In this document: piece by piece, positions 1 to 16,181 of the stretch
Layout: every line of letters starts with the position of its first letter
How positions within the stretch are numbered: the stretch's first letter is position 1
Source: Anaerolineaceae bacterium
GTDB taxonomy: Bacteria; Chloroflexota; Anaerolineae; Anaerolineales; Anaerolineaceae
Direction: 5' to 3'
Length of the DNA: 64,000 nucleotides
Assembly: GCA_029975475.1 (NCBI GenBank)
Contig: JARKPB010000008.1
Coordinates: forward strand, 1-64,000
Translations under genes and position numbers: made by a program
The notes under the pieces: model-generated
Databases searched by the model: none
What the model saw: only the letters and a program-made list of their open reading frames with translations
What the model was told of the DNA's origin: nothing

Positions 1-5
1 ACGAG

Positions 6-1422: not shown

Positions 1423-1775
1423 ATAATCACCTCCTTTCCTTCCGAGATTGCTGAAATTTTCATAATCCAAATCAGCCGGATATTCTGAAACTCAACCGGG
1501 AACATGGCTTTCACCCACAAGAGGAAACGCTGGTTGGTATTCAAGATTTCCTGTAATTCTGCTTGATCCAATCCTTTCTCGACTTTCTGAAAAAGGAAAT
1601 CAGGGAGACTGGTGTTGATAGTCGGCACTGATCCAAATGGTTGTGAGCCAGCCCAGAGAAGCAGCTCTTTAAGATGCTCGAAATCAGTAGAAATCTGAAG
1701 CGATGAACGCCCATGAACATCTCGTGAAAATTTCAGGAACAACTTAACCTTGAGATAGTTCTGCCGATCCAGCAT
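1419..1775 (-). CDS. Hypothetical protein of the mobile-element block
   Basis: I do not recognise this 118-residue protein. It is mostly helical in appearance, rich in Leu and Phe, with no signal peptide and no clear motif. It overlaps the 3' end of the upstream HTH/zinc-ribbon gene and touches the AbrB gene downstream, so the three form a coupled operon. ATG 1775 follows GGGATTTGGA; a TTG at 1796 would add seven residues. Its position suggests a role in regulation or maintenance of the element, which is inference only. Confidence 0.55.
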   Translation of the reverse strand: MLDRQNYLKVKLFLKFSRDVHGRSSLQISTDFEHLKELLLWAGSQPFGSVPTINTSLPDFLFQKVEKGLDQAELQEILNTNQRFLLWVKAMFPVEFQNIRLIWIMKISAISEGKEVII

Positions 1776-2178
1776 TCCAAATCCCGCGATTAACAATCCC
1801 GCCGCAGATGGGACATATGCCTTTCAGATGGCTCAGGTGGCCTTTGACAGGGTGAATTTCCCCATTTTGGATTTTGACGATGGTATTGCAGCGCATGCAA
1901 AAACCTTCCCCTGCTTGAAGCGGATGGGTTGGTTTCTTTCTGGCGTTCCGTTGACTGTCAACCCAGGCGGCAAATTCCTTGCCGTCGATCCAGATGTGAT
2001 TGGATTCATCCCGATTGTGTGGCGCGCCATGATTGAGCCAATCCCGCAAGGTGGTTTCAGGAATGTCCAGGTCTTCAGCGATTTCCCGCGGCGTGTAAAG
2101 CATGGGCAGCAAACCGGGCGCTTTGATCAAAACATTTCTGGAAATCCGGCAGTTTGAAGTATTTTGGTTTTCTGACAT
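1744..2178 (-). CDS. HTH and zinc-ribbon DNA-binding protein
   Basis: In this 144-residue protein, residues 28-50 (YTPREIAEDLDIPETTLRDW) read as a helix-turn-helix of the MerR/excisionase or terminase-small-subunit kind, and the following HIWIDGKEF segment looks like the wing. Cys94, Cys97, Cys122 and Cys125 (CMRC and CPIC) form a four-cysteine zinc ribbon. AAGGAG four bases before ATG 2178 supports the start. It lies between the replication ATPase gene and two small regulator genes. A role in origin binding or element control is plausible but not shown. Confidence 0.7.
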   Translation of the reverse strand: MSENQNTSNCRISRNVLIKAPGLLPMLYTPREIAEDLDIPETTLRDWLNHGAPHNRDESNHIWIDGKEFAAWVDSQRNARKKPTHPLQAGEGFCMRCNTIVKIQNGEIHPVKGHLSHLKGICPICGGIVNRGIWNAGSAELSQG

Positions 2179-2218
2179 TCTTCTCCTTTGTTATTTGTGA
2201 ACTTTGCAACGAACGAAC

Positions 2219-2266
2219 ATACGCCAGCCAAGCCAACCTCTTAAGGGAATGGCAAGGCTGGCGTAT
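2219..2266. repeat. 11-bp inverted repeat enclosing the helicase stop codon
   Basis: ATACGCCAGCC (2219-2229) and GGCTGGCGTAT (2256-2266) are perfect inverted copies separated by 26 bases. The stop codon of the minus-strand helicase gene (2241-2243) lies in the loop. No T-run follows, so a simple intrinsic terminator is unlikely. A processing or attenuation stem-loop between two operon genes fits better. Confidence 0.6.
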
Positions 2267-3701
2267 CCTCTTCCCATTGAGAGGTGTTGAAAGATCCTCG
2301 TTTTGTAACTCTGATTCGCGGATCATTATTGAGTTTTGAAAATACCCGGTCGATCGTCCTGGCACTGCTGTTGATTTGAAGCGCCGAGATGAGCTCGTTC
2401 TTCTTGAATTCCTGCGCCGGTACGCTTTGCAGATATTCCAGAATATCCGCAAAGATCAGTTCCGCCTGACCAGGAACGCGTACCTGTTCAGAAGCATTTG
2501 TTTCAGAAAATCGAAGTGCGATGCTCTCTTCGGTCGATTCAATTTGAAACTGCAACTGTGCGGGTGGCAGGGATTCACGCACCTTTTGTGGAATGATCGT
2601 TCGCGTCGAGTGGGTTGAATGTTGGTTTTCGTGCGCAACCACGATGGCGGTATCGACAGATCCTAAAATATCGGAGGAGCCCCGGACACGATAGGAAAGA
2701 TCGGTGTTCCCACCCTTATTGAGGTGATGAATCAGAATAAAGGTCGTTCCGGACTGGTTGGCTATTTCTCGCAGGGTGTTCATCATCGGTGAAATTTCTG
2801 CGACCGAATTTTCATCTGCGCCAGGCATAAACTTGGCCATGACATCAAAAATGACGACAGAGGCATCCAACCGGTGAATGCGTTGACGCAATGCCAGCAC
2901 CTCGGAAGTAACTTTCAGGTTAAGCGGAGAAAAGTCGAAAATTAAGTTCGCTGGCGGTTGAATTCCCCGCGCATGGCACAGTTTGAGAACGCGTGAGCGC
3001 ATACCCCGATAGCTGCCATCCAGGAAGTGATACAGCACTTTGCCCTGGGTTACCGGCCGGTTATCCCATGCCAGACCCGAAGAAGCCATACCAATCGCCA
3101 GGTCCAGAGCGAGAAAACTCTTTCCGGCTGCCGGCATTCCGGCAATCAAGTTGATTCCACCGGCCATAATCCAATCTTTGAGAATCCAGGTCAATTCGCC
3201 CATCTCCGACAAACACAATTTGTCTGCGGTCATAACCATTCGCTCCGTGACTCCCGACAAGTCGGATGATCTGACAAAGAATTCTTCCATTTGCTGCAGA
3301 GCTTCAGAAAGCGGTTTATCTTGAATAGCATTTTGCGCAAGGTTTGTAGCGACCTCCAATGCTTTTCGCTTAAATGCTTTTTCACGCACGATCTTCGCGT
3401 AAGACTCGGCATGCATTGACGTTGGAGTCACATTGAGTAAGCCCATGATATATGCTGGCCCACCAAATTCCTTGAGACGCCCACTGGATTTCAAAGCATC
3501 ACACAGGGTGACAAAATCAATCTGTAACCCAGATTCCGTCAGATGACACATTGCTTCCCAAATCCAGCGGTGTGAGATGCGGTAAAAATATTCCGCTTTG
3601 ACGATGGTGACCAAATCTACAAATAGATAAGGTGCAATCATGATCGAACCGAGTAAGGCTTGTTCGGCATCAATATCTCTGGGCGGAATGGGATCGGACA
3701 T
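2241..3701 (-). CDS. DnaB-like N-domain fused to a RepA/RecA-like replicative ATPase
   Basis: This 486-residue protein starts with a DnaB-type N-terminal helical domain (about residues 5-110; DIDAEQALLGSI is typical). A RecA-fold ATPase of the RepA/AAA_25 kind follows, with Walker A GMPAAGKS at 188-195 and Walker B VVIFD at 282-286. The C-terminal part after about 405 looks like a winged helix (AQEFKKNELISALQI). Proteins of this type act as replicative helicases or helicase loaders on plasmids and integrative elements. ATG 3701 has GGAG six bases upstream; TTG 3713 would add four residues. Neighbouring small DNA-binding genes and the recombinase fit a mobile element. Confidence 0.8.
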   Translation of the reverse strand: MSDPIPPRDIDAEQALLGSIMIAPYLFVDLVTIVKAEYFYRISHRWIWEAMCHLTESGLQIDFVTLCDALKSSGRLKEFGGPAYIMGLLNVTPTSMHAESYAKIVREKAFKRKALEVATNLAQNAIQDKPLSEALQQMEEFFVRSSDLSGVTERMVMTADKLCLSEMGELTWILKDWIMAGGINLIAGMPAAGKSFLALDLAIGMASSGLAWDNRPVTQGKVLYHFLDGSYRGMRSRVLKLCHARGIQPPANLIFDFSPLNLKVTSEVLALRQRIHRLDASVVIFDVMAKFMPGADENSVAEISPMMNTLREIANQSGTTFILIHHLNKGGNTDLSYRVRGSSDILGSVDTAIVVAHENQHSTHSTRTIIPQKVRESLPPAQLQFQIESTEESIALRFSETNASEQVRVPGQAELIFADILEYLQSVPAQEFKKNELISALQINSSARTIDRVFSKLNNDPRIRVTKRGSFNTSQWEEDTPALPFP

Positions 3702-3775
3702 CAAAGGCTCCAAATGGTTTGATATTTACTCCTAACAACAACACAAAGGTCATCTGAGAAAACGAAAAGCGACCG

Positions 3776-3799
3776 GCATAACAAATGGCTTTGTTATGC
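3776..3799. repeat. Perfect 10-bp hairpin upstream of the helicase gene
   Basis: GCATAACAAA (3776-3785) and TTTGTTATGC (3790-3799) form a perfect stem with a TGGC loop. It sits about 75-98 bases before the ATG of the minus-strand helicase gene. No T-run follows. It could be an operator, part of a replication origin, or an RNA hairpin in the helicase leader. Confidence 0.55.
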
Positions 3800-4289
3800 G
3801 GCCGCTCCTACGATTTGATTGATGTCCAAGGAGATCAGCGACCCGAAACGATACCATTTTTATTCTACAAATAAATCAGGCATGATCCAAGGTGGTCAGG
3901 TCAATTTTTGTGTTCAGCGATTTGGACAGGCCGGAACTGACAACCATATGCGGCAGGTTTACCCAGCATCGTCCAGGACAATCGCTCAACCGTTTTCCAC
4001 CAGATATCCGGGATTTTATACCAGGCTGCGCTTGAAGGACGTAAGGTTCACCGGCTCGCGAAGATGCGAAAGCGGACCTGCAAAGATTTCACCCAGCAAA
4101 CCTGGTTGTTTACTATTTCGCGTAAAGAGGTGAGAAATGATCGGGTTGCCTCAACCTCTTCTCTTCGGCCAGTTTGAAGAACTATAAGTAAGTGATCTAC
4201 TCAATGTAACCACCGTAATTGATGCTATCGTGTTTGAGGAGTATGTTGCAAAAGCCCCAGATTTTTTGTACGACGTCCATGAATTATTC
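3800..4289. other. Gap of about 490 bases with no convincing gene
   Basis: This stretch lies between the helicase promoter side and the kinase stop. A plus-strand frame at 3819-4133 is open but shows no family features or ribosome site. A second plus frame from about 3940 to 4182, without a start codon, reads more like protein (KVHRLAKMRKR, TWLFTISRKEV). It may be the 3' remnant of a broken gene. No repeats or RNA genes were seen. Confidence 0.35.
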
Positions 4290-5774
4290 CTAATCTATTG
4301 GCAGGTGAGAAGGGAATCTTAGTTGACCATTTACCGCTTTGGCCAATAATTCAGCCCAGCGGTCACAAAAAACCTCAGTATATTCATCGTCAATCAGCTT
4401 AGGTTTCGATCCAAACTGAACATGAGCCATGCCAGGAGATGCTGCAAGGTCAGCATTAGAAATATTCTCTTCAGCGTACGGTTCATACCCCGGATGCGAA
4501 CGCATGAGCGGACTGGTCATATAGCTGACTTCCCACCAGCGGTATTCTTGTCCCTTTCCAAGGTTCGTATACCATAAATTGGCGCTCCAAATATAGGGTT
4601 CTCTCGTTTTTTGCGATACCCTGGCAATGACACCCGTTAGTACATCCCATCCACTCCTCTGAAATCCATCTGTAGGGATGGTGGAAAATCGAACAAAATC
4701 GAAAGATAGTTCTGCATCACCCAAAACAATTGAGCGATTAGGGAAAGGAGCATAACTGCTAAAGGTTTTGGCAGATGTTGAAACAATTGCGTTAGGTGCG
4801 TGATCTTGAATACGTTGAAAGAGGGTATCCACGATCTGCAATAATATTTCTTGCGCTTCACGTGCGATCGTTTTTCTCCGCTCTTCTACACTTTTCGCCG
4901 AGAGTTCGCGTGCTTCTTCCTTACTCGAATTCTCAGCGATTTTTGCGGCGGCTAAAGATAGAGCCTGCAAACCACCTGATGGGTTGTGATCTCCCGAAAC
5001 AATTATCTGCTCTAATTGATTTTTAACCCTTCCCAAAGAAGGCCTAGTTATTGGATTTTTTCGTAACATCATTCCCACCAGTGTTTGAAGGCGAGAATTG
5101 GTTATTTTGGAAATAGGTGGCTGTTGATAAAGATGTTGCTCTTTCAATTCCTCTGGTGTTCCTAAGAACGGTGGTGTTCCAATCAGGAGAGTAAATGCAA
5201 TACATCCCAAGGCATAAATATCGACGGCGTTGGTTGGATGCTCTAAATTCCACTGTTCGGGCGCAGCATAAGAAGGTGTAAGGCATTCACGTAACGTCTG
5301 AAGAGAGGTAGATTCTTCGATAAACTTTGCGATACCGAAATCTGCAATTTTCCAAACACCAGAATGGAAAAGAACATTCCCTGGTTTTAAATCGCGATGA
5401 ACAAGACTTGGGACTTCCAACAGCCCATTGACAATTTGCAACAAAATAGAAACCGCTTCATGATCTTCGAATTTTGGCTTTACCTTGATTTCATCTTGAA
5501 GACTTTTTTGTGCCTTTGCCATCACAAGATAATTCTTTCCAGATTCTGTATCCTGGCCAGCATCATATATCGGAATTACATATTGATATTCCCTATTTAA
5601 TAGTTCGTCGGCTATGCGGATCTCACGCTGTGCTTCCTGAGTGATTTCTTTGACAGCTACCTCACCTAGTTTTTCTGAGTAACCAGCGAAAACAACCCCA
5701 AAGCCTCCTCGCGGTCCAAGCTTTGTGTTTGAATCATATTGCCATATGCCGTTGGGTAAATAAATTGTATTCAT
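4290..5774 (-). CDS. Hanks-type Ser/Thr protein kinase with unknown C-terminal domain
   Basis: This 494-residue protein has an intact kinase domain at about residues 10-260: glycine loop GPRGGFG (20-26), ATP-binding Lys42, catalytic HRDLKPGN (126-133), metal-binding DFG (145-147) and APE (171-173). A charged, probably coiled linker (about 275-320) leads to a C-terminal domain of about 170 residues that I do not recognise (WDVLTGVIARV, WSANLWYTNLG). There is no membrane segment or PASTA repeat, so it is cytoplasmic, unlike PknB-type growth kinases. ATG 5774 has GAGG ten bases upstream. It is 25 bases downstream of a two-HTH gene and probably co-transcribed with it. Location in accessory DNA suggests a stress or phage-response role, which is inference. 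Confidence 0.85.
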   Translation of the reverse strand: MNTIYLPNGIWQYDSNTKLGPRGGFGVVFAGYSEKLGEVAVKEITQEAQREIRIADELLNREYQYVIPIYDAGQDTESGKNYLVMAKAQKSLQDEIKVKPKFEDHEAVSILLQIVNGLLEVPSLVHRDLKPGNVLFHSGVWKIADFGIAKFIEESTSLQTLRECLTPSYAAPEQWNLEHPTNAVDIYALGCIAFTLLIGTPPFLGTPEELKEQHLYQQPPISKITNSRLQTLVGMMLRKNPITRPSLGRVKNQLEQIIVSGDHNPSGGLQALSLAAAKIAENSSKEEARELSAKSVEERRKTIAREAQEILLQIVDTLFQRIQDHAPNAIVSTSAKTFSSYAPFPNRSIVLGDAELSFDFVRFSTIPTDGFQRSGWDVLTGVIARVSQKTREPYIWSANLWYTNLGKGQEYRWWEVSYMTSPLMRSHPGYEPYAEENISNADLAASPGMAHVQFGSKPKLIDDEYTEVFCDRWAELLAKAVNGQLRFPSHLPID

Positions 5775-5799
5775 AGAGATTTGCCTCAATGTTATTTGA

Positions 5800-6240
5800 C
5801 TATTCTGCTATTGCTCGATTAATTTCTGCCAGCCAGTCTTTCAACCAGCCGCCAATGTCTCGGTTTTTCCGAACACATTTTGCTACTTCAGTCTCATCCA
5901 GCAGTGTCTTTCGACCCTCTTTGCCCAATTGGTGGATCAGCCCTCGCTGCATCCAGCGCGTGAGCGTGGAGGTGTTGAGCTTGTATTTCCGGCCGGCTTC
6001 ATTGATGCTAATCGGAACGCCTTTCAAGCCGGCATTGAGCTGATATTCAGGTAAGGCTTCCTTGGGCAGCAGATGATTCACGCTGATTTGACTGATGCCG
6101 ATACTTCCATCGGTCATCACGGCTGCCTGAAGTTTTCCCTCATCTGCCAACTGATAAATGGAATCTAAATCCAACCCAAGCTGTTTGGCGGCCTGTTCGG
6201 GAGTGATGTAATATTCCAAACGGGATTGATCGAGTTTCAC
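5800..6240 (-). CDS. Small protein with two helix-turn-helix segments
   Basis: This 146-residue protein contains two MerR/excisionase-like HTH segments: residues 11-40 (ITPEQAAKQLGLDLDSIYQL) and 77-105 (SINEAGRKYKLNTSTLTRW). A C-terminal helix rich in Trp follows. The GTG start at 6240 is the first in frame. It precedes the kinase gene on the same strand, and its upstream region holds a 12-bp direct repeat. It could be the kinase module's regulator or the kinase's DNA-bound substrate. Neither is proven by sequence. Confidence 0.65.
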   Translation of the reverse strand: MKLDQSRLEYYITPEQAAKQLGLDLDSIYQLADEGKLQAAVMTDGSIGISQISVNHLLPKEALPEYQLNAGLKGVPISINEAGRKYKLNTSTLTRWMQRGLIHQLGKEGRKTLLDETEVAKCVRKNRDIGGWLKDWLAEINRAIAE

Positions 6241-6280
6241 GGACTGCTCACAGAATGCAATTTACTACAAGTTAATCATA

Positions 6281-6316
6281 CAGTGAAAGTGAAGGATCGT
6301 CCAGCACTGAAAGTGA
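6281..6316 (-). promoter_or_regulatory. 12-bp direct repeat in the promoter of the HTH-kinase operon
   Basis: CAGTGAAAGTGA (6281-6292) and CACTGAAAGTGA (6305-6316) differ at one base and start 24 bp apart, close to two helical turns. They lie 41-76 bases upstream of the GTG start of the two-HTH gene. A minus-strand TATGAT overlaps this area. The spacing suits cooperative binding by a regulator, perhaps the two-HTH protein itself. Confidence 0.5.
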
Positions 6317-6327
6317 TCCCAATTTTC

Positions 6328-6381
6328 TTTACTTGTTATCAAAATAAGCGTATAATGATAACAATAATTTCCTTATTATCA
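6328..6381 (+). promoter_or_regulatory. Promoter and operator of the Fic gene
   Basis: TTTACT (6328-6333) and TATAAT (6351-6356) are spaced by 17 bases. An imperfect palindrome starts at the -10 box and runs from TGATAAC (6356-6362) to TTATTATCA (6373-6381), in the expected transcription start region. A repressor there would block transcription. The same half-site, TTATTATCA, recurs in the palindrome at 13367-13400. Confidence 0.6.
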
Positions 6382-6397
6382 CTTGTGAGAAGATAGC

Positions 6398-7558
6398 ATG
6401 AACCCTGAAGATTTCCGGGAAAGTATAAGTGGACAATTAATCTCTATTCCCGAGGGGGGATTTGCCTATGTGCCGAATCCCCTTCCGCCAACCAACTTTA
6501 CTTGGGATTCCAGATTGGTCGAAATGCTCTCGCTTGCTGACCGCGCGTTAGGGGAATTGGCTGGTATAGGTAGATCATTGCCCAATCCACATTTGTTGGT
6601 GCGCCCTTTCCTCAGGCGTGAGGCCGTCCTTTCTTCCCGGATTGAAGGAACGCAGGCATCGCTTGCGGATGTGTTAGCCTTTGAAGCAATCCAATTGCCG
6701 CTTTTTGACGCCTCGGATGATGTGAGAGAAGTACATAATTATGTTCGCGCTTTGGAATATGGCCTCGAGCGGATGAGCAGTTTACCTGTCAGTTTACGTT
6801 TGATCCGCGAATTACACGGCATTTTACTGGATGGGGTACGTGGAGAACAGTTCCGAGCGGGTGAATTCAGACAAGGCCAGAATTTTATTGGTCCTCCGGG
6901 GAGCAGCCTTGCCACTGCCACCTATGTTCCACCCCCACCCAAAGAGATGCTGAAGGCATTGCAGCAATTGGAGTTGCACATCAATGAGTCATCCAATCTT
7001 CCTCCACTGATCCGTTTGGGCTTAATCCACTACCAATTTGAAGCCATCCACCCTTTTCCGGATGGTAATGGACGATTAGGCCGGCTGTTGGTTTCTATAC
7101 TGTTGTGCGCCTGGAATTTGCTGCCTCAGCCTTTATTATATTTGAGCGCCTTTTTTGAAACCAACCGGCCTGATTATTATGCCAATCTGCGTGGCGTTTC
7201 TGAAAAAGGGAATTGGAATTCTTGGTTGACCTTTTTCTTATCTGGTGTTTCCTCTCAATCCCTCGATGCAGCAGCGCGGGTAAAACGCATCAACGATCTG
7301 AGAGAGAATTATCGCCAGCGTTTCCAGCAAAGGCGCTCTGCAGCTCGTTTACTCCAGGTTGTGGATCTTCTTTTTGCCCGGCCACTTATTTCTGTACGCA
7401 CGGTTGAAGAGGAACTTGCTCTGCCTTATCCAACTGCTGAACGTTATATTGATGAATTGGTAAAGCAGGGGATTCTAGAGGGCACTGGCAAGGCGCGTAA
7501 TCGTATCTTTAAGGCATCCAATATTATTAACTTGTTAGAAAGTAGAGAGAGTTACTAG
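6398..7558 (+). CDS. Fic-domain protein (AMPylase/nucleotidyltransferase)
   Basis: This 386-residue protein matches the Fic_N-Fic-winged-helix layout. The catalytic motif HPFPDGNGRLGR is complete (His218, Arg226, Arg229), so transfer of AMP from ATP to target proteins is expected. An N-terminal inhibitory motif of the (S/T)xxxE(G/N) type is present (Ser79, Glu83, Gly84), making this a self-inhibited class II Fic protein. Residues about 310-380 form a winged-helix domain (RTVEEELALPYPTAERYI) that could bind its own operator. ATG 6398 lies behind GAGAAGA. It is divergent from the kinase operon. Such genes are often horizontally acquired. Confidence 0.88.
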   Translation: MNPEDFRESISGQLISIPEGGFAYVPNPLPPTNFTWDSRLVEMLSLADRALGELAGIGRSLPNPHLLVRPFLRREAVLSSRIEGTQASLADVLAFEAIQLPLFDASDDVREVHNYVRALEYGLERMSSLPVSLRLIRELHGILLDGVRGEQFRAGEFRQGQNFIGPPGSSLATATYVPPPPKEMLKALQQLELHINESSNLPPLIRLGLIHYQFEAIHPFPDGNGRLGRLLVSILLCAWNLLPQPLLYLSAFFETNRPDYYANLRGVSEKGNWNSWLTFFLSGVSSQSLDAAARVKRINDLRENYRQRFQQRRSAARLLQVVDLLFARPLISVRTVEEELALPYPTAERYIDELVKQGILEGTGKARNRIFKASNIINLLESRESY

Positions 7559-7633
7559 GGCAATGATGTTCAATCAATTTCTTTCGATTATTGACCAATA
7601 TGTTGCGATTACTTTTTACTCATTATCAGTCAT

Positions 7634-7666
7634 TGAATGCATTCATGTTTTTACTAATGCTATAAT
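7634..7666 (+). promoter_or_regulatory. Extended -10 promoter with a 12-bp palindrome at -35
   Basis: TGCTATAAT (7658-7666) is an extended -10 element and there is no good -35 box. In its place lies the perfect palindrome TGAATGCATTCA (7634-7645). The layout suggests control of the downstream restriction-modification-like pair by a dimeric regulator at the -35 position. Confidence 0.5.
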
Positions 7667-7695
7667 CGGTTTGAAGCTTCAGCCAGGAGACGATA

Positions 7696-9159
7696 TTGCC
7701 AAACAATAACTTCAAAAGTGATGAAAGTTTCTTAGAAAAACTCGCTGTAGGTGCTGCGGGTGTTAATGCAACCATGGATTCACTTGTGAAACTTGGTTAC
7801 CTGCCCATAGAACTTGAACGCGGCTCATCTGGGTACAAAATTTGGAAAAGAATAAAAATAAAAAGGGTAAGGGTTCCAGACATTTTATGTTTGCGAAGTG
7901 GCGTAAGATTTGAATCTAGGGGTAAAACAAAGCTTGAAATTTCTATGTCCCATTCATTAAAAGATCCTAACAGAGCTTGGGATGCAGGATTACGCTCCGA
8001 TGACCTTGTATCCTTTGTGCTATTTGAAAAAGCAGATAATACACCAGTAAATTGGGTTGTGGCATCTCCTGTACATTTTATTCGTGTTGAAGATATGCGT
8101 GAAGCATTTTCAAAAGAGTTAATCCAGATTTCAAAACCTAAAGGTGTTGAAGAAGGATCAGAAATTCGCGTTATCTGGCCTTGTACAGTCGCTAACGAGG
8201 ATTCAATAGTGACCGAGATTAACGAAAAAAATATCAAACTTACCTACGCGAATAAACCAGGCCATCAAAGATGTATTTTGACAAGAAAGAAATTTTCTCT
8301 GGTTCCCCAATGTAAAACTGGGCAACATATAAAGAAAAATCAAATTATCGCATCAACAGTACCTGTCCTATTTGAACCAATATGTAAAAAAGAAGTAAAA
8401 GAAGATTTTTTCAGAGAACGGTTAACAAGCGTGTCTTTAAGTGAAAGATACGCATCAGCAAAAGCATTAAGATTTAGAGGATACAAAGATTCCTTCAATA
8501 CTTTGTATGACAGAATGGTAGATCCAGAAGAGGATATCTATGTTCAATTAGAAGCAGCCGCTGCGTTAGCTGCTCAAAATGATAAGACTGGTTGGGATTT
8601 TTTAACCAATTCCCTAAACAGCCCTTATCTTACTGTTCAACTTGAAACTGTAATTGTACTTTCCGAAATTTCAGACGTTAAGAGTGAAAGCTTGCTCATA
8701 CAAGTGTTAACCGATTCAAATCGTGAAAGTGAAATTAGGGCTGGTGCAGCCTGGGGTTTGGGCAATTTTAAGTCACAAGAAGCAGCGAAATCTCTAATAA
8801 ACACATTCAACCTGGCTAACAATGAAATCAAGATCGAAGCTGCAAGAGCGCTTTTGAAAATCGCTCCCCCCCTTGTTCATTTCTTAGAAGATTCGCTCAA
8901 GAAAACTAATGTAGAAAATAGAGATGGGATTGCATGGACTTTAGCTCGTTTAGAAGGTCTTGATTTACTGAAATTGTTAGAGGGTAACCCAGATCATAAT
9001 TTACGCATTTGGACCAGTTATATTGCTGGTTATGGGAAAGACCATTTTACTGAAGAACAAATATCAAAATTATGTGAAAATGATCCTGAGGTCTATTTTG
9101 CTGCTAGTGTATTATGGCAAGTTCTATCAAGTTGGATTTATGAATTAGGTGAATATTAA
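7696..9159 (+). CDS. HEAT-repeat protein with candidate nuclease domain, probable restriction endonuclease
   Basis: This 487-residue protein has two parts. Residues about 10-130 contain a short conserved-looking block: VRVPDILCL (Pro61-Asp62), then FESRGKTKLEISMSHS (Glu73, Lys77, Lys79, Glu81), which resembles but does not exactly match a PD-(D/E)XK core. Residues about 235-480 are HEAT/ARM-type helical repeats (AAAALAAQNDK, IRAGAAWGLGN, IEAARALLKIA). The stop overlaps the start of a cytosine-N4-type methyltransferase by one base (TAATG), so expression is coupled. The usual partner of such a methyltransferase is a restriction enzyme, and this is the only candidate. TTG 7696 has AGGAG six bases upstream. 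Base composition is visibly more A+T-rich than the metabolic genes downstream, suggesting transfer. Confidence 0.6.
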   Translation: MPNNNFKSDESFLEKLAVGAAGVNATMDSLVKLGYLPIELERGSSGYKIWKRIKIKRVRVPDILCLRSGVRFESRGKTKLEISMSHSLKDPNRAWDAGLRSDDLVSFVLFEKADNTPVNWVVASPVHFIRVEDMREAFSKELIQISKPKGVEEGSEIRVIWPCTVANEDSIVTEINEKNIKLTYANKPGHQRCILTRKKFSLVPQCKTGQHIKKNQIIASTVPVLFEPICKKEVKEDFFRERLTSVSLSERYASAKALRFRGYKDSFNTLYDRMVDPEEDIYVQLEAAAALAAQNDKTGWDFLTNSLNSPYLTVQLETVIVLSEISDVKSESLLIQVLTDSNRESEIRAGAAWGLGNFKSQEAAKSLINTFNLANNEIKIEAARALLKIAPPLVHFLEDSLKKTNVENRDGIAWTLARLEGLDLLKLLEGNPDHNLRIWTSYIAGYGKDHFTEEQISKLCENDPEVYFAASVLWQVLSSWIYELGEY

Positions 9160-10184
9160 TGAGTATTAAAGATTTACCATTATATAAAACAGACCTGGGT
9201 CATGCATATGTTGGTGATGCATTGAATTATCTTGCAGAAATTGAGGATTCAACTATAGATTTAGTAATGACTTCTCCTCCATTTGCGTTACGAAGGCAAA
9301 AAGCATATGGTAACGTGGAGGAAAGTAAATACCTTAATTGGATAAAACCTTTTGGGAAAGAGGTGTTCCGGGTTTTAAAAGATAGCGGAAGTTTCGTTTT
9401 AGATTTAGGAGGGGCATATAAGTCAGGGAAACCCTCACGGTCTTTATATAATTTTCGAGTATTAATGTGTTTATGTGATGATGTTGGTTTTCAGCTTGCT
9501 GAAGATTTTTATTGGTTCAATCCAGCAAAGCTGCCTTCTCCAATCGAATGGGTTAATAAACGAAAAATTCGTGCAAAAGACGCAGTAAACACGGTTTGGT
9601 GGTTCAGTAAAACAGAGTGGCCTAAAGCTGATGTGCGTAATGTTTTAGTGCCGTATTCTGATCGAATGAAGAAATTAATTTCAGATCCGGAAAATTTCTA
9701 TTCGCCCCAAAAAAGACCTTCGGGTCATGATATTGGTGCGAATTTTGGAAAGGACAATGGTGGCGCGATTCCATCAAACCTATTATCGATACCAAATACT
9801 GATAGTAATTCCAGTTATTTGAGGCTTTGTAAAGAACTAGGTCTGGAGAGACATCCAGCTCGATTCCCTGAAGATTTGCCAATGTTTTTTATCAAGATGC
9901 TTACTGATGCAGGTGATACAGTTATTGATATTTTTGCTGGTTCTAATACAACAGGTTCAGTTGCCGAAAAACTTGGTCGTAAATGGATAGCATTTGATAC
10001 CTCACAAGAATATCTTAAAACTTCAATATTGCGTTTTCTTGAAAATCCGTCCGTAAAAGACGCATCGAAGATTATTGATTTATTAGAAAATCCACAAGCA
10101 GACTTTTCATTAACAGAGACCAGCTTTTTTTCAAGAAGATTGTTCGATGGGGATGATACGTTAAATAAATACAAGATTAAATAA
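9159..10184 (+). CDS. Site-specific DNA methyltransferase, cytosine-N4 type
   Basis: This 341-residue S-adenosylmethionine-dependent DNA methyltransferase has catalytic motif IV TSPPF at residues 38-42, near the N-terminus, and the cofactor motif (DIFAGSNTTG) from Asp257, near the C-terminus. This is the beta-type order. SPPF is typical of enzymes making N4-methylcytosine, for example the PvuII and BamHI methyltransferases. The region between (about 170-245) is the likely target recognition part. It overlaps the HEAT-repeat gene by one base. The pair probably forms a type II restriction-modification system in which this enzyme protects host DNA. The recognition sequence cannot be read from sequence. 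Confidence 0.85.
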   Translation: MSIKDLPLYKTDLGHAYVGDALNYLAEIEDSTIDLVMTSPPFALRRQKAYGNVEESKYLNWIKPFGKEVFRVLKDSGSFVLDLGGAYKSGKPSRSLYNFRVLMCLCDDVGFQLAEDFYWFNPAKLPSPIEWVNKRKIRAKDAVNTVWWFSKTEWPKADVRNVLVPYSDRMKKLISDPENFYSPQKRPSGHDIGANFGKDNGGAIPSNLLSIPNTDSNSSYLRLCKELGLERHPARFPEDLPMFFIKMLTDAGDTVIDIFAGSNTTGSVAEKLGRKWIAFDTSQEYLKTSILRFLENPSVKDASKIIDLLENPQADFSLTETSFFSRRLFDGDDTLNKYKIK

Positions 10185-10407
10185 ATACTTAAAATTACAT
10201 TATTAAAATGTGTATGGCGCTTACTTACTCAAATGGAGATGGTAGATTCTAAAAAAAACCTTCTTCTTCAGGGTGTGAATTTAACAATTAGTTCACTTTG
10301 TTCCCCCCTATGAGTTTTCGGGAACGACCAAAAATAACGACCAGCCGAGTCGTTCTCCTTAATTCCCGGGTCAAGATAAAATCAAAATTAGGCAAGATTA
10401 TTAAAGG

Positions 10408-10992
10408 ATGACTCCCGACAACTCACTCACCATCACCCAAAATACCTGGATCATTTCCGATACGCATTTCTTCCACACGAATGTGCGCCCTTGGTGCGAG
10501 AACATTGGAAGATACTGCAATCGCCCCGAAAATTGGCAGGAGCTGATCATCAAAAACTGGAACGACCTGATTTCCCCCGATGAAAATGTCCTGCACCTGG
10601 GCGATTTTGCATTGGGAAAGAAAAGCAATTTTGAGCTGCTGATCGGCAGTTTGAATGGCAGATTATTTTTAATCCAGGGAAACCATGACCGGTTGAGCCA
10701 GTCTTTTTGTGAAGCCCATGGCGTGACCCTGATTAAAAATTCATTACTGGTTGAATTAGAAAATCAAATGAAGCTGATCTTTTCACACCGTCCGATTGTT
10801 CCTTTGGAAGATGGATGGATCAATTTTCATGGTCATATTCATAACGTTCCACCGCCTCCTGAGGGTTCTAATTTGGGACCCGACCATATCAATATGAGCG
10901 TTGAGGTCAGAGATTATCGGCCCTGGCGGTTGGGTGATATTCTCAAAACCAGCAAAGACCATCCAACAGAGAACGATGTGTCACTCCGTTGA
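10408..10992 (+). CDS. Calcineurin-like metallophosphoesterase
   Basis: This 194-residue protein carries the full set of metallophosphoesterase motifs: Asp18-x-His20 (SDTHF), Asp66 (LGDFA), Asn92-His93 (GNHD), His127 (SHRP) and His143/His145 (GHIH). It is a two-metal phosphodiesterase or phosphatase of the small YfcE-like group with no extra domain. The substrate cannot be told. It is cytoplasmic. The start at ATG 10408 lacks a well-spaced ribosome site. It stands alone between the methyltransferase and the XRE-ImmA gene. Similar small phosphoesterases occur as cargo on mobile elements. Confidence 0.85.
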   Translation: MTPDNSLTITQNTWIISDTHFFHTNVRPWCENIGRYCNRPENWQELIIKNWNDLISPDENVLHLGDFALGKKSNFELLIGSLNGRLFLIQGNHDRLSQSFCEAHGVTLIKNSLLVELENQMKLIFSHRPIVPLEDGWINFHGHIHNVPPPPEGSNLGPDHINMSVEVRDYRPWRLGDILKTSKDHPTENDVSLR

Positions 10993-11278
10993 CCCGTTCC
11001 CCCTTATGACTCTAGGGGATCGAAGTGGGAAGAACGATGTACCGCACCTTTCTCCCTAGCTAGGATAATTTTTCCTGCACAAAAAAAGCGGGCGATTTGT
11101 TTGTACCAAAAATAGAAGCTAATCAGCACTTGTTGAATGGTAATTTTGATCTCAAACCAGCACTGGAATCCAATTAATAAAACCACTTCCAAGGCTATTG
11201 GCCGGACTTTTAACTCTACGGTATATTTTGTACCTCCCTATCAAAAAGAATGCTGCAAAAAGTGTCCTGGTCGATCAA

Positions 11279-11355
11279 CGTCAGCGGCAGTGTCTGCGTC
11301 AACGTCTGCGGCGTGTCAACATCACGTCTGCGGCACGTCAGCAAGGACGCAGACG
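11279..11355. repeat. Clustered CGTCTGCGGC repeats with inverted copies
   Basis: Within the 540-base gap 10993-11531, which holds no convincing gene, CGTCAGCGGC (11279-11288) and CGTCTGCGGC (11303-11312 and 11325-11334) recur at 22-24 base steps. GTCTGCGTC (11292-11300) is inverted as GACGCAGAC (11346-11354). The tract is G+C-rich in otherwise A+T-rich DNA. It could fold as RNA or serve as a binding array. It has too few units and too short spacers for CRISPR. Confidence 0.45.
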
Positions 11356-11473
11356 ATGTTATTTTCTGATTAACATTAGTAGGGTTTTTCTGGATAAGAG
11401 TAAAATGATTTTTGCATAAAGAGGGTGGCTTCTTTTAACCTCCAAAGACGATCTCTTTTAAGTAAAATTGCCG

Positions 11474-11509
11474 GTTTACAAAATTAGTTATTAATGCTAT
11501 TATGTAAAC
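11474..11509 (+). promoter_or_regulatory. Promoter of the XRE-ImmA gene flanked by an inverted repeat
   Basis: TTTACA (11475-11480) and TATTAT (11498-11503) are 17 bases apart, a good sigma-70-type promoter. GTTTACA (11474-11480) and TGTAAAC (11503-11509) are perfect 7-bp inverted copies lying on the two promoter boxes. A dimer bound there would shut the promoter, consistent with autoregulation by the XRE domain of the downstream gene. Confidence 0.65.
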
Positions 11510-11531
11510 TGAAAGAGAAAAGGAGATGACC

Positions 11532-12584
11532 ATGACCATCGGAGGGCGTATCAAACAGGCTCGGAAAGCGGGCAATTTTTCTTTGCGAAAACTGGCGGAT
11601 GAAATTGGGGTCAGCGCCATGGCGATCTCAAAATATGAACGCGACCAGGATGTGCCCAGTTCAGGCGTTCTGCTGCGTTTATCCCAGGCTTTAAAGGTCA
11701 AGGTGGACTTCTTCTTTCGCCCGAGCACGGTCTCCGTTCAACTTCAGGCCTATCGAAAACATGCTGTACTGGGTGCCAAAGAACAGGAAGCCATCCAAAT
11801 GCGTATCCAGGACTGGGTGGAGCGTTATCTCGAGGTTGAAAGCCTTTTCCCTGAAGAACAACACACGGCTAACCTCCCCCTGCGCAAAGTGACCTCACTG
11901 GATGAAATTGAAACCGCAGCTCTCGAATTACGTGACCACTGGAGCTTGGGCTATGATGCAATCGAAAATCTGGTCCAGTTGCTGGAGGACCGGGGAATCA
12001 AAGTGGGGATCATCTCCGGTTTCGAGCATTTTGACGCCTGCACTTTCAAAGCAGATGGCGATCCGGTAATCGTAACCAAAGGCGAGTTATCAGGCGACCG
12101 GCAGCGATTCAATTTAGGGCATGAACTGGGACACCTGATCCTGGATATTCAGGGCGACCTCAAACCAGAACAGGCAGCCAATCGGTTTGTCGGGGCTTTC
12201 CTCGTCCCGGCGGCAACGGCTCGCTTTGAACTTGGCACCAACCGAACAGATCTGAACATCAACGAGCTACACATGCTTAAGCATAAATATGGTTTAAGTA
12301 TGCAGGCCTGGATTTACCGTGCAAAGGATCTTTCCATTATTTCTGAAAACACTGCGGCGCGTTTATTCCAGCAGTTCCGTGTCAATGATTGGCATCGCCA
12401 GGAACCAGGAAAACCTTATCCATCTGAAACGCCCATGCGGATGGAACGGTTAATTTATCGCGCTTTGGCTGAGGATTTGATCTCGCGTTCCAGGGCGCAG
12501 GAATTGTATGGCAAGCCATTACAACTAGGGTGGGAGATGGAGGCACTGCAGCTAAATGACCTTGCCATCCGTTCTGGTAACTGA
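11532..12584 (+). CDS. XRE-family HTH with ImmA/IrrE metallopeptidase domain
   Basis: This 350-residue protein fuses an XRE helix-turn-helix (about residues 5-60; SLRKLADEIGVSAMAISKYE) to an ImmA/IrrE zinc peptidase domain with HELGH (His197, Glu198, His201) and a probable third ligand at Glu213. Relatives cleave phage or element repressors, or act as regulators of toxin-antitoxin pairs. ATG 11532 has AGGAG six bases upstream. ATG 11526 would abut the ribosome site and is less likely. The following PIN gene starts inside its 3' end, so the two are coupled. The promoter is flanked by an inverted repeat that the HTH could bind. Confidence 0.88.
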   Translation: MTIGGRIKQARKAGNFSLRKLADEIGVSAMAISKYERDQDVPSSGVLLRLSQALKVKVDFFFRPSTVSVQLQAYRKHAVLGAKEQEAIQMRIQDWVERYLEVESLFPEEQHTANLPLRKVTSLDEIETAALELRDHWSLGYDAIENLVQLLEDRGIKVGIISGFEHFDACTFKADGDPVIVTKGELSGDRQRFNLGHELGHLILDIQGDLKPEQAANRFVGAFLVPAATARFELGTNRTDLNINELHMLKHKYGLSMQAWIYRAKDLSIISENTAARLFQQFRVNDWHRQEPGKPYPSETPMRMERLIYRALAEDLISRSRAQELYGKPLQLGWEMEALQLNDLAIRSGN

Positions 12585-13050
12585 TACGAATATTTGGATC
12601 GACCTCGAGAACGGCAAGATATTAGCCGCTGTTTTCCATCTTCCATATCAATTTTTCACCACTGATTTTGCGGTAGAAGAGTTTATTCATCCCAGGTGGG
12701 CAACGCTGCAAGATCTGGGATTGCAAACACATGGTCTTGAACCTGAATATGTGCTCGAATTAGTCCGGTTAAGGCAAATCCATCGTCAATTATCAGCCAT
12801 CGACCTGGCTGCATTATTGCTTGCCAGGGTATTGGATGCAAGTTTGGTGACCGGCGACCGAAGACTTAATGAACTTGCCAAAGCGCAGGGGGTACCGGTT
12901 CACGGGGTGTTATGGATATTGGATGAAATGGTATTACACTGGGTTCTTACAGAAAACCAAGCAGCTATTGCCCTCCGTGAAATGCTCGATCAAGGGGCAA
13001 GGCTGCCAGATTGTGAATGTCAAAAGCGTTTTGATTGTTGGTCATCTTGA
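12556..13050 (+). CDS. PIN-like domain protein, probable toxin partner of the XRE-ImmA protein
   Basis: This 164-residue protein has a PIN-fold pattern: Asp10 (VTDTNIWID), Glu41/Glu42, Asp83 (AIDLAALLLA) and Asp101 (LVTGDRRL). These acidic residues would bind Mg or Mn for RNA cleavage. It overlaps the upstream XRE-ImmA gene by 29 bases. XRE-ImmA genes followed by PIN-like genes are a known predicted toxin-antitoxin arrangement, so an RNase toxin is likely. The Cys-rich tail (DCECQKRFDCW) is unusual and might bind a metal. ATG 12556 is the only reasonable start, and GGAGG lies about 14 bases upstream, rather far. Confidence 0.75.
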   Translation: MTLPSVLVTDTNIWIDLENGKILAAVFHLPYQFFTTDFAVEEFIHPRWATLQDLGLQTHGLEPEYVLELVRLRQIHRQLSAIDLAALLLARVLDASLVTGDRRLNELAKAQGVPVHGVLWILDEMVLHWVLTENQAAIALREMLDQGARLPDCECQKRFDCWSS

Positions 13051-13067
13051 CCAGAAAAGATATTCGA

Positions 13068-13265
13068 ATGAGTAAACCCAAAGGTACAATGCACAAGCCG
13101 GGTCAGAAGGCCCCGGAATCTGGACAATATGGCGTAGTTGGTCCAAAAGGCAGAAAAACCGGGACTGAAGTCACCGTTACCAAAGGCGAAACCTTGCCGC
13201 CAACGCCAAAACCAGGCCAGGGATTTATCCTGGTGGACAAGACCAAACACAAAGATGATAAATGA
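13068..13265 (+). CDS. YjzC-like small protein
   Basis: This 65-residue, basic protein begins MSKPKGTMHKPGQKAPESGQ and has a Pro/Gly-rich, probably beta-stranded body with a PTPKPGQG loop. The layout PGxxAPxxGxY followed by GETLPP resembles the YjzC family of small proteins of unknown function. It starts 18 bases after the PIN gene on the same strand and may be the third gene of that operon. No catalytic residues are evident. A longer reading from TTG 13035 is not supported. Confidence 0.6.
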   Translation: MSKPKGTMHKPGQKAPESGQYGVVGPKGRKTGTEVTVTKGETLPPTPKPGQGFILVDKTKHKDDK

Positions 13266-13366
13266 TTTAGCCAAGGATAAAACACTAGTCCGGAAATATT
13301 TCGGATGAATACCTTTGATGTTGTCTTCAGGTAGTGGCTATTATCATAAATGAGAGCACATCCAAT

Positions 13367-13400
13367 GTTATTATCATTTCAGTCTGAAATTGATAATAAC
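13367..13400. promoter_or_regulatory. 34-bp near-perfect palindrome
   Basis: GTTATTATCA (13367-13376) and TGATAATAAC (13391-13400) are perfect inverted copies, and the inner TTTCA/TGAAA continues the symmetry with one extra base on one side. A further ATTATCA half-site lies at about 13340. It is 167 bases upstream of the lone XRE gene. The half-site TTATTATCA matches the Fic operator at 6373-6381. Confidence 0.6.
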
Positions 13401-13566
13401 AAGTGCTTACTTTGATTGGAACTGACGCAAGAAATAAAGAAATCTGGATTATGATAATTTAGGTTTCTTTAGCGATAGATCTGATTAGTGCAGGTGGAAT
13501 AGTTCTTGCGGGCATTGATCATCTAGACCTGAAAGATTCAATGGATTTGGCATTGAAGGAAGTAAA

Positions 13567-13839
13567 TTGCCAAAATTTGAAGATTGGGAAGCTGAAAAGA
13601 TTAAAGCCCCGGATTTCCTGGCTGCTGCCGAGGAATTGGAACCCGGCTACCAGGTTGCCCGGCTCCGCATGTTAAGGGGTTTAACTCAGGCTCAACTTGC
13701 TAAGATGGTTGGCACTCGGCAACCTTCCATCGCTAGATTAGAGAATGGCTCAAGCACTCCGAGTTTATCCTTCCTTGCGAAGATCGCTGAAGCGTTAGGC
13801 GCAAAGATTGAATTCAAGTTAATACCCGACACAAAATGA
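13567..13839 (+). CDS. XRE-family HTH protein, HigA/antitoxin-like
   Basis: This 90-residue protein has an N-terminal stretch ending in ELEPGYQVARLRMLRGL and a Cro/XRE helix-turn-helix (LTQAQLAKMVGTRQPSIARL) at about residues 40-85. Such proteins normally follow a RelE/HigB-type toxin gene. Here the 300 bases upstream contain no toxin-like frame, so it is an orphan antitoxin or a solitary regulator. TTG 13567 has GAAGGA six bases upstream. A long palindrome lies 167 bases upstream and could be its operator. Confidence 0.8.
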   Translation: MPKFEDWEAEKIKAPDFLAAAEELEPGYQVARLRMLRGLTQAQLAKMVGTRQPSIARLENGSSTPSLSFLAKIAEALGAKIEFKLIPDTK

Positions 13840-13920
13840 CCTTATTTGGGTTTTGATTGCCTGGAAGTGTGCCAGGTAAGACTTATTATGTGTAAACCTG
13901 GTTATAATCAATCCAACAGT

Positions 13921-13968
13921 ACCCACCACGCCTCTGCTTTGCATGCGCACCGAGGTGGGTCATTTTTT
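13921..13968 (+). terminator. Intrinsic terminator after the XRE gene
   Basis: ACCCACC (13921-13927) pairs with GGTGGGT (13954-13960), followed by CATTTTTTATT. The long loop weakens the call, but the T-run and position after a gene fit a terminator. The rest of the 300-base gap to 14140 shows nothing else. Confidence 0.55.
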
Positions 13969-14139
13969 ATTAAACCAAAACGTCAACAAGTGATGTCCTT
14001 TGAATTGCATAGCATTACGTGTGATCAGACAGTTAGTGTAAAATTCAAAGGGGTACTAAAATTCTCATTATGTAAATAACCAAAAAAGATGCCCGCCTTC
14101 ATAGTTTTCACGCGGGAGTAATAAAAAGGATTACTTTCA

Positions 14140-15717
14140 ATGATGAAGCCTTATAATATAATGACAACCGTTTTGATGACAATAATCCTTACAGCCTGTA
14201 GCGCGTCCGCAGTGACTACGACCCCATCAAACCCAGTTGCGGAGGTCACGACGACCTCGTCTCTTGTTGAGACATCGATGTCCGATATCGTAACCTTTGC
14301 TGATCCAGTGTTAGAAGCAATGATACGCAGCGCGATGGGCAAACCTGAAGGTGAAATCACCCTCGCGGAAGCCCAGGGCGTCACCCGCATGGATCTCACC
14401 GACTCTTTGCAGCGACAGCTCTCCGAATTCACCCCAATCACCAACCTCAACGGCCTGGAAGCCTTTACCAACCTCGAAAGCCTCGACTTGTCTCAAAACG
14501 CCGTGTCCGACATCTCCCCTCTGGCCGGGCTCACCAAACTAACCGTCTTATCCCTAGCTGGCAATCCCGTCACGGATGTCGCACCTCTGGCCAAATTAAC
14601 CAACCTTAAGCTCTTGATCCTTTCCAACTGCCAGTCGGACGATTACAGCGCCCTCGCCAACCTGGTCAACCTGCAGGTGCTCCTGCTTGACAATTCCACC
14701 ATCCGCGACCTCAGCCCGCTCGCCGCTCTCACCATCCTACGCCAGCTCTCCCTGGCCAACACCTCCGTGGATGACCTTTCTCCACTCGAAACCATCTACC
14801 CCAACCTCGAACAAAAGGATTTCATCATCCCCTCCACCTTGGTTGACCTGGGCTTCAACCTGGATCCCAACAATCACGAAGCCTACTTCGAAAGCGAGTT
14901 AGCCACATTCACCGTCACCCATGACAAGTGGGGGCCGCCATCCAGGGAAGACAACCAGAATATCATCCGCATGACCCTCTACCTGAATGATGAATACAAA
15001 ACCTCCATTGGTTATTATGACATGCACAAGGTCTACCTCTGCCAAATGGATAAGGAAGGCCAGCCGCCCGTGAACTACCTCTACGACATCGCCACTGGCG
15101 AATATTCCATCGAAGGGCAAGATCGGGCGAACTCAGAACAGATGATCCGTGCCGCCATGGAAGTTGAAAATGGCGAAGATCCATTGTATGCGCCTGTCCG
15201 CTTCTTTAATAAAACCATTCAGAACACCTTCCACATGCCCCCCGCTAAACTCTTCGCCCTGCCCTATGAGCCGCCATCTCTCAGGAACCTGGGCTTTTTC
15301 CCGGTGCAGGAAGAAGCAGTCTACCGGTACGAATATCGAAGTGAAAATGACGTCAATGTCCAGGTTCACCGCCCAGATTGGGGAGAGCAAGATTTCGACG
15401 TTCAATTTTTCACCGAGATCAGTGATGAATACCGCCTTGTGGTCAATTATCACCTGGTAGAAAAAAGGATTTCGTTTAGTGCGGATGATAACGCACAGGG
15501 TGGTGCAAGCTTTGTCTATTATGAAGAAACCGGTGAGTTCGTCGACGAATGGTGCAGCTATCCTGATCTAACCGTGAGAGATTACTTCATCAAAGCCTTC
15601 AACGACCCCGCCATCCAAAATGTTTACCAGCATTCCATGGAACTGGCGGAGCAATACTTCGTCGATACCTTTGGCATGACCGCCGGGGAATTGTATGCGC
15701 TCCCGACGGGCGAATAA
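14140..15717 (+). CDS. Leucine-rich-repeat lipoprotein (internalin-like repeats)
   Basis: This 525-residue protein has a signal peptide with lipobox ILTAC (Cys20), so it is membrane-anchored and faces outward. A Thr/Ser-rich linker leads to an N-cap (ADPVLEAMIRSAMGKPEGEI) and about five 22-residue leucine-rich repeats (about 100-225) of the internalin type, for example LESLDLSQNAVSDISPLAGL. The C-terminal 290 residues are unrecognised and contain two similar halves, each beginning near LxxLGF (VDLGFNLDP and RNLGFFPV), which suggests a duplicated domain. The repeats imply protein binding. No operon partners. Confidence 0.8.
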   Translation: MMKPYNIMTTVLMTIILTACSASAVTTTPSNPVAEVTTTSSLVETSMSDIVTFADPVLEAMIRSAMGKPEGEITLAEAQGVTRMDLTDSLQRQLSEFTPITNLNGLEAFTNLESLDLSQNAVSDISPLAGLTKLTVLSLAGNPVTDVAPLAKLTNLKLLILSNCQSDDYSALANLVNLQVLLLDNSTIRDLSPLAALTILRQLSLANTSVDDLSPLETIYPNLEQKDFIIPSTLVDLGFNLDPNNHEAYFESELATFTVTHDKWGPPSREDNQNIIRMTLYLNDEYKTSIGYYDMHKVYLCQMDKEGQPPVNYLYDIATGEYSIEGQDRANSEQMIRAAMEVENGEDPLYAPVRFFNKTIQNTFHMPPAKLFALPYEPPSLRNLGFFPVQEEAVYRYEYRSENDVNVQVHRPDWGEQDFDVQFFTEISDEYRLVVNYHLVEKRISFSADDNAQGGASFVYYEETGEFVDEWCSYPDLTVRDYFIKAFNDPAIQNVYQHSMELAEQYFVDTFGMTAGELYALPTGE

Positions 15718-16181
15718 GGATTAAAGGGTGTCATCGAGACATGTCGGGCTAGATGACATTAGGTCAAGTACAAATGGGTAACCTTGAAAATTGATGACTC
15801 TTGTTCGGTTCAATTTCTGTCTTTCGAGTTCAAACAAACCTGGTTTTTGGGATTATTGTTAAATTCCTAAATCGTCAATTTTTCCACAATTTGACGATTT
15901 AGGAAGTGGTTTATTGAATGATGATTGACACACATCCATTTTTTGCAACGATTGACCTTTTGTGACAACAAAAATCTTGATTAATCTTTACAAATCACAT
16001 AAGAACGATAGAACGAAAAGGTCGTGGATTTTTGACGTTCGTTCATCAAAACTCAACCATCGTCCTCCGGGTCGCGAAAAAAGTCCTACTTGACCCTGTC
16101 ATAAAAAGTCGCTATCATACGACTAATAACTCGTAACCAAAGATCCTCCGGCCTCTTCAGAAGAGCGTCCCTCAGGCCAGG
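15718..16181. other. A+T-rich gap between the LRR gene and a minus-strand remnant
   Basis: About 460 bases without a supported gene. The most notable element is the 15-bp inverted repeat at 15864-15905. Near 16010-16050 there are related short runs (GAACGATAGAACGAAAAGG and GACGTTCGTTC). No RNA gene was recognised. Confidence 0.4.
15864..15905. repeat. Perfect 15-bp inverted repeat
   Basis: TTCCTAAATCGTCAA (15864-15878) and TTGACGATTTAGGAA (15891-15905) are perfect inverted copies with a 12-base loop. No T-run follows. It lies about 150 bases after the LRR gene, near the right boundary of the accessory region. It could be a recombination or attachment site core, a transposon-end remnant, or an mRNA 3' stabiliser. 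Confidence 0.6.

Follow-up and report, generated by a model that had tools for sequence, protein, structure and literature searches.

In the 64,000-nt stretch of contig JARKPB010000008.1 from an Anaerolineaceae bacterium, which was analyzed as a whole (hereafter the window), the gene of a HEAT-repeat protein overlaps the gene of an M.PvuII-type DNA methyltransferase. With a probability of roughly 0.83, this pair forms a type II restriction-modification system in which the HEAT protein would be the endonuclease and its residues 1-148, a domain of PD-(D/E)XK type, would cut unmethylated CAGCTG. The methyltransferase is an ordinary enzyme of the M.PvuII type and the novelty lies in the putative endonuclease, which very probably represents a new family of type II restriction endonucleases and probably has CAGCTG as its target. 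The features of the pair, all on the forward (+) strand, are as follows, with the support for each given in brackets:

7685-7689, +: AGGAG, resembling a ribosome-binding site, 6 bases 5' of the TTG start (read from the sequence)
7696-9159, +: candidate restriction endonuclease gene encoding the HEAT protein (open reading frame, ORF, of 487 amino acids, aa; Pfam HEAT_2; AlphaFold2 model; linkage to M.PvuII-like genes)
7696-8139, +: residues 1-148, PD-(D/E)XK-like domain (AlphaFold2 predicted local distance difference test, pLDDT, 82.9 and predicted template modeling score, pTM, 0.79; structural neighbors in VIA)
7879-7926, +: putative active site, D62, E73, R75 and K77 (invariant in 70/70 aligned members)
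8140-8397, +: residues 149-234, barrel-sandwich-hybrid-like domain resembling RNA polymerase beta (VIA; profile match to RpoB chains)
8398-9156, +: residues 235-487, HEAT-repeat solenoid (Pfam HEAT_2; AlphaFold2 helices; alphaRep matches)
9159-10184, +: M.PvuII-type DNA methyltransferase gene, product probably N4-cytosine-specific at CAGCTG (ORF of 341 aa; matches to 1boo and PADLOC MTase_II)

A gene pair that recurs across phyla

The HEAT gene begins with TTG and ends with TAA, and base 9159 is common to this stop codon and the ATG of the methyltransferase gene (TAATG). A first-pass annotation of the window had described a protein with an N-terminal VPD block and C-terminal HEAT repeats that overlaps a complete methyltransferase gene by one base, and each of these elements was recovered: the methyltransferase ORF is complete, VPDIL occupies residues 60-64 with ESRGKTKLEISMSHS at residues 73-87, and Pfam HEAT_2 is matched with E 9.6e-16, the best stretch being residues 302-386. 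The annotation had called the methyltransferase SPPF-type, which can be refined to M.PvuII-type specifically: Pfam assigns N6_N4_Mtase (E 1.5e-43), residues 6-308 match the M.PvuII structure 1boo in the PDB (E 3.2e-130) and PADLOC returns MTase_II (E 2.5e-152). PMC2997769 describes the product of M.PvuII as N4-methylcytosine (m4C) at the inner cytosine of CAGCTG. The window enzyme would probably place its N4-methyl group at the same base, and the HEAT protein would cleave this sequence in its unmethylated form.

The N-terminal part of the HEAT protein is rare in its own family and phylum, as matches to residues 1-235 were limited to 4 of the 147 genomes of the family and 7 of the 400 of the phylum (E <=0.01, own genome included in both counts). 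Weak family matches in two genomes (L003/L020 in G072 and L004/L021 in G033) were discarded as short or stop-containing fragments that lack an M.PvuII-like gene. A pattern search of the genome-contig collection with the single window protein yielded no relative, and tblastn searches of plasmids and phages with residues 1-235 gave no match. An alignment of the window protein with seven clear relatives (one of them, L014, frameshifted) was then used as query and identified 131 relatives in a genome collection with a single representative for each species and two further relatives on viral contigs. The best 80 of these 131 comprise 73 bacterial and 6 archaeal members and 1 without assignment, and cover 21 named phyla, with 3 relatives lacking a named phylum. 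Relatives of the HEAT protein are consequently present in at least 21 phyla, archaea included. Together with the two viral contigs, the best 80 make up 82 loci, among which four of the seven genomes of the first whole-genome search reappear (L052, L054, L061 and L084). These four genomes occur twice in the set of 89 loci (L013/L052, L015/L084, L016/L061 and L017/L054), which leaves 85 distinct loci. Removal of L014, of incomplete genes and of duplicates gave an alignment of 71 rows, own row included; alignments A2 and A3 hold 70 rows, as L100, situated at a contig edge, was also removed, and A4 holds 51 of these 70 rows.

The HEAT gene and the M.PvuII-like gene are paired far beyond chance. 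In 78 of the 82 loci a PvuII-type methyltransferase match lies directly downstream on the same strand, at a gap of less than 80 bases in all cases except L103 (328 bases), and the same arrangement was found for seven out of seven clear relatives in the first whole-genome search. The proximity of homologues to m4C-type methyltransferase genes, which the first-pass annotation had proposed for examination, is borne out by these counts. Of the loci lacking a downstream methyltransferase, three (L043, L046 and L091) are on contigs that end within or just past the HEAT gene, and in L090 the HEAT gene is split by an ORF for a serine recombinase (7063-8808, - strand; Pfam Recombinase, E 1e-14), after which the contig ends. 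L047 carries, a few kb from its HEAT pair, a second and more distant PvuII-like methyltransferase (10103-10954, - strand).

Clustering of neighboring ORFs of at least 100 aa across the 85 distinct loci recovered the HEAT family at all 85 and the methyltransferase at 81 of them. Clusters present in 8 to 36 loci consist of opposite-strand ORFs inside the pair (124 of 125 ORFs), and two clusters in 5 loci represent other frames inside it. The commonest outside neighbor is an unrelated-looking GAF/histidine-kinase protein in 7 loci, the remaining outside clusters being limited to at most 3 loci. No separate nuclease family recurs in this set, in line with the earlier statement that no other nuclease lies near the pair. 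The pairwise distances between methyltransferases correlate with those between nuclease domains (r 0.85) and between HEAT parts (r 0.88), and in neither comparison of 68 pairs did any of 999 permutations reach as high a value. Intact pairs number 72 among the 89 loci and 68 among the 85 distinct ones. A broken HEAT gene stands beside an intact methyltransferase gene in 10 of the 89 loci and the reverse is found in 1, a lopsided decay that counts in favor of the proposed system; the remaining 6 are cut by contig ends or insertion.

Predicted domains of the HEAT protein

Residues 1-148 likely form a nuclease of the PD-(D/E)XK type, as many nuclease families agree in the structural comparison and as D62 and E73 are placed across strands and are both fully conserved. 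AlphaFold2 modeled the full HEAT protein on the 70-row alignment with pLDDT 91.7 and pTM 0.87; in the model of residues 1-148 alone (scores given above), residues 41-60 are poorly defined. The structural neighbors of this domain in VIA include a SPARDA chain (Z 7.4), archaeal Hjc (7.1), I-Ssp6803I (7.0), MspI (6.3) and DpnI (5.8), with PvuII (Z 4.7) and HincII (Z 4.2) in lower rows. We take 40 of the 50 rows, the top 19 included, to be PD-(D/E)XK nucleases; the others are four DXO/Rai1-type decapping enzymes and six entries for eIF3d or Rep15, one of which, from a 48S complex, we take to be eIF3d. The first-pass annotation had offered residues 1-235 as the nuclease. Residues 1-148 do take a fold that falls among PD-(D/E)XK nucleases, with middling scores, but residues 149-235 belong to a separate sandwich domain.

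In the AlphaFold2 models, a hairpin begins at P61-D62 and E73 lies on the strand that follows. This corresponds to the metal-binding Asp/Glu arrangement, both residues are found in 70/70 members, and the active-site motif can be written as P-D-x10-E-x-R-x-K. Further positions of the domain are equally invariant in 70/70, the complete set being K7, S11, F12, G19, E39, L40, E41, R42, W50, K54, K56, R57, R59, P61, D62, E73, R75, K77, M84, S85, R93, W95 and D103. Among the residues named in the first-pass annotation, D62, E73 and K77 belong to this set, whereas K79 (52/70) and E81 (56/70) vary. R75, which was absent from that list, sits at the usual place of the catalytic lysine, and the core reads E-x-R-x-K for E-x-K in all aligned members. 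In the proposed mechanism, residues 1-148 would act as a nuclease that depends on metal bound by D62 and E73, and R75 and/or K77 would take the place of the usual catalytic lysine. K77 would lie on the same strand face as R75, two residues on, and the basic stretch of residues 48-59 would probably touch DNA close to the active site. Conservation within the HEAT protein is highest in the nuclease domain, with a mean pairwise identity of 57% (sandwich domain 41%, HEAT part 44%, methyltransferase 66%). A zinc-ribbon reading of C65-x2-C68 was rejected, position 68 being Cys in 36/70 members and Ser in the window protein.

Comparison of residues 1-148 of the 70 members with four protein-family libraries retrieved nothing convincing, only unrelated-looking families, none of them matched by more than 12 members; the lowest E values were 0.0023 (Pfam), 0.0094 (PADLOC), 0.015 (NCBIfam) and 0.0077 (PHROGs). 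If the proposed reading is true, defense annotation may therefore well list a solitary methyltransferase beside a HEAT protein at such loci.

The sandwich domain was superimposed by VIA, from the full model, on RNA polymerase beta (residues 162-224; Z 9.7, 62 residues at 1.6 Å), and profile comparison matched RpoB chains, at E 0.0014 over the chain and 0.011 when the stretch itself is scored. Other Pfam sandwich families also match weakly and convergence within sandwich folds is possible. Residues 235-480 are HEAT repeats that match alphaRep and PBS-lyase-type HEAT repeats. Sandwich domain and solenoid together would probably hold the DNA or a second subunit. AlkD is HEAT-like, and the HEAT protein might accordingly be pictured as a base-excision restriction enzyme, its HEAT part resembling AlkD-type HEAT glycosylases and its N-terminal part cutting the abasic site or binding DNA. 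Restriction glycosylases do exist, according to PMC10273834. Given the match of the HEAT part to alphaRep and PBS-lyase-type repeats and the N-terminal domain as the best conserved part, such an enzyme is highly improbable.

Nuclease partners of the methyltransferase lineage

A strong PvuII-type methyltransferase match (E <=1e-60) was present in 22 of 301 phylum genomes, which divide into 6 HEAT loci, 14 inspected loci without an intact HEAT gene, and G217 and G412, which stood outside the inspection. The neighbors in the 14 loci include three R.PvuII, two HNH and two Mrr_cat proteins and one HEAT remnant. In L126 and L127 an N-terminal helix-turn-helix (HTH) domain is fused to R.PvuII (PF09225, E 1e-63 and 3e-65), and L136 carries a similar HTH-R.PvuII protein with an internal run of N (PF09225, E 1.6e-28). 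These fusions unite controller and endonuclease in one protein and are convergent with the methyltransferase gene (L126:2428-3264, L127:2593-3402 and L136:1990-2790). MTaX1-HNH proteins are the neighbors in L130 and L135. The Mrr_cat proteins of L131 and L132, with the Mrr_cat domain at the C-terminus, represent together with L134 a third kind of partner, of 380-480 aa and situated directly upstream of the methyltransferase gene; the L134 protein resembles the other two by eye and has no Pfam match. L128 has kept the C-terminal HEAT remnant alone, the neighbor in L138 is a helicase, and no nuclease was recognized in L129, L133, L137 and L139.

In a methyltransferase tree of 96 rows, which holds neither L136 nor the loci whose methyltransferase ORF was not near-complete, the R.PvuII-paired enzymes of L126 and L127 nest within HEAT-paired rows, and M.PvuII of pPvu1 falls inside the same 85-row clade (support of 99 in the Shimodaira-Hasegawa-like approximate likelihood ratio test, SH-aLRT). 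This tree fits an exchange of partners, and the nucleases therefore seem to swap, R.PvuII and the HEAT protein replacing each other on one methyltransferase lineage. The HEAT-paired rows also include deep branches, for which CAGCTG specificity is only presumed. The large extra domains missing from R.PvuII and the differing active-site pattern could likewise indicate an endonuclease whose target or mode is unlike that of R.PvuII, for instance one that recognizes a longer site, acts on several sites together or cleaves at a distance from CAGCTG. This is unlikely, as the nesting of L126 and L127 speaks for CAGCTG as the common target. Moreover, the two enzymes of the simplest type II systems share one site.

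The HEAT protein could also lack catalytic activity and assist the methyltransferase, for example in DNA binding or as a stability factor, with the methyltransferase effectively solitary. The nuclease activity of the HEAT protein is a prediction, binding is the typical task of HEAT and sandwich domains, and E-x-R replaces E-x-K. The nuclease-like fold with its invariant acidic pair, the persistence of the methyltransferase where the HEAT gene is broken and the true nucleases that occupy the place of the HEAT gene in several sister loci make this alternative quite improbable. The role of the HEAT protein as the likely nuclease, which the first-pass annotation had put forward, is instead supported by predicted fold, invariant residues and linkage.

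Several observations weigh against a restriction-modification system of the proposed kind. The best VIA score, Z 7.4, is below the tool's caution line of 8, Foldseek gave E values of at least 1.1 for residues 1-148, the viral structure library yielded E values of at least 0.11, and the basic stretch is of low confidence in the model of residues 1-148 (residues 41-60 have block means of 73 and 55 there, against 86 and 82 in the full model). No sequence-profile link to nucleases of the PDB, to Hjc or to R.PvuII was detected: the sole PDB row for residues 1-148 was an RNA polymerase gamma zinc region (E 4), no match came from hhalign with 29 Hjc sequences (PF01870; 30 loci were fetched and L153 was excluded) or from hhalign of the HEAT protein with a set of three R.PvuII sequences, and the window protein did not match the R.PvuII family PF09225 at E <=1. 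The lysine position of E-x-K is R75 in 70/70 members, with Lys at 77 in 70/70. As the superfamily tolerates other residues at this place (BamHI, BglII), R75 weakens membership without excluding it. The support from the lopsided decay is qualified, as its P of 0.025 against gene length takes loci as independent where L096/L097 (one genus) and L039/L094 (sister tree rows) are kin, and sequencing errors in metagenomes may add to the apparent decay of the HEAT gene. The supports for the nesting of L126 and L127 (SH-aLRT 83, 91 and 88) are moderate and come from a quick tree search without a clade test, and 6 of the 14 other loci (L129, L133, L134, L137, L138 and L139) have no partner bearing a recognized nuclease domain. 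Lastly, the host genome, with 1673 CAGCTG sites, does not avoid this sequence, which is expected if the sites are methylated, yet lends no support.

A wider picture can be drawn from these data, which we put forward tentatively and at somewhat less than even odds. It holds that an undescribed endonuclease family, spread across bacteria and archaea, has replaced R.PvuII or was replaced by it, that it employs an E-x-R-x-K site, and that its sandwich domain and HEAT repeats clamp the DNA, so that PvuII-type specificity would be achieved by an unrelated architecture.

Genomic surroundings and known systems

The gene pair is located near the contig start in an A+T-rich stretch (G+C of 37% at 8001-10000 vs 55% over 17601-64000). 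To its left, genes for a phage-type integrase (Phage_integrase, 155-1141), a DnaB-like/AAA_25 protein, a Ser/Thr kinase and a Fic/DOC protein were identified (155-3713, 4290-7558). Mobile islands are a common home of restriction-modification genes, and these neighbors and the A+T-rich composition fit such an island; the stretch looks like an integrated mobile element or island. CAGCTG is absent from the first ~17.6 kb (1-17680), where ~3.5 to 4 sites are expected, and occurs 20 times in the rest of the window. This scarcity (P 0.002 against the whole window) is given no weight because the first 17.6 kb is A+T-richer, and it is only suggestive of a loss of sites in the island. A search of the host genome for R.PvuII gave no match, as did that of the control set. 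To the right, at 11526-13050, the gene of an HTH-IrrE (Peptidase_M78) protein overlaps the ORF that follows it, whose 164-aa product appears PIN-like by eye (no Pfam match at E 1e-5); the two are possibly a toxin-antitoxin-like pair. No HTH controller gene was found beside the candidate endonuclease gene: ORFs of at least 50 aa in 7559-10400 are the two genes and five opposite-strand ORFs inside them, the three longest of which have no Pfam match, and HTH genes (Pfam) to the right start at 11526 and 13567. Promoter and terminator patterns did not exceed chance in the window and no tRNA was found in its 64 kb.

No description of a HEAT endonuclease family was found among the best-ranking matches of full-text searches on HEAT repeats, sandwich domains, PvuII, PD-(D/E)XK nucleases or new restriction enzymes, with subscription papers and REBASE outside this scope. 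If the proposed reading is true, a widespread endonuclease family possesses a catalytic domain without a convincing match in four protein-family libraries, the exchange with R.PvuII within a single methyltransferase lineage offers a clean case of two unrelated enzymes reaching the same DNA target, and an opening is provided on the role of HEAT repeats in a restriction enzyme.

Each part of the HEAT protein has its counterpart among known proteins. Residues 235-480 are like HEAT/alphaRep repeat proteins, unlike which they are joined to a nuclease-like domain and encoded by a restriction-modification operon. The sandwich domain resembles its RNA polymerase beta counterpart over the 62 residues mentioned above, but here is an isolated domain within a nuclease-like protein. 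With the PD-(D/E)XK nucleases Hjc, SPARDA nuclease, I-Ssp6803I, MspI and DpnI (Z 5.8-7.4), residues 1-148 have in common the hairpin start at P61-D62 and E73 on the next strand, whereas E-x-R-x-K replaces E-x-K and a sequence relation is undetected by profiles. The PvuII system of Proteus vulgaris (pPvu1, NC_002632) has a closely related methyltransferase of the same 85-row clade and likewise adjacent nuclease and methyltransferase genes. Its R.PvuII, however, is small, encoded on the opposite strand and accompanied by a controller gene, whereas the window pair consists of a three-part protein of 487 aa encoded upstream on the same strand, with a one-base overlap and no controller gene found alongside.
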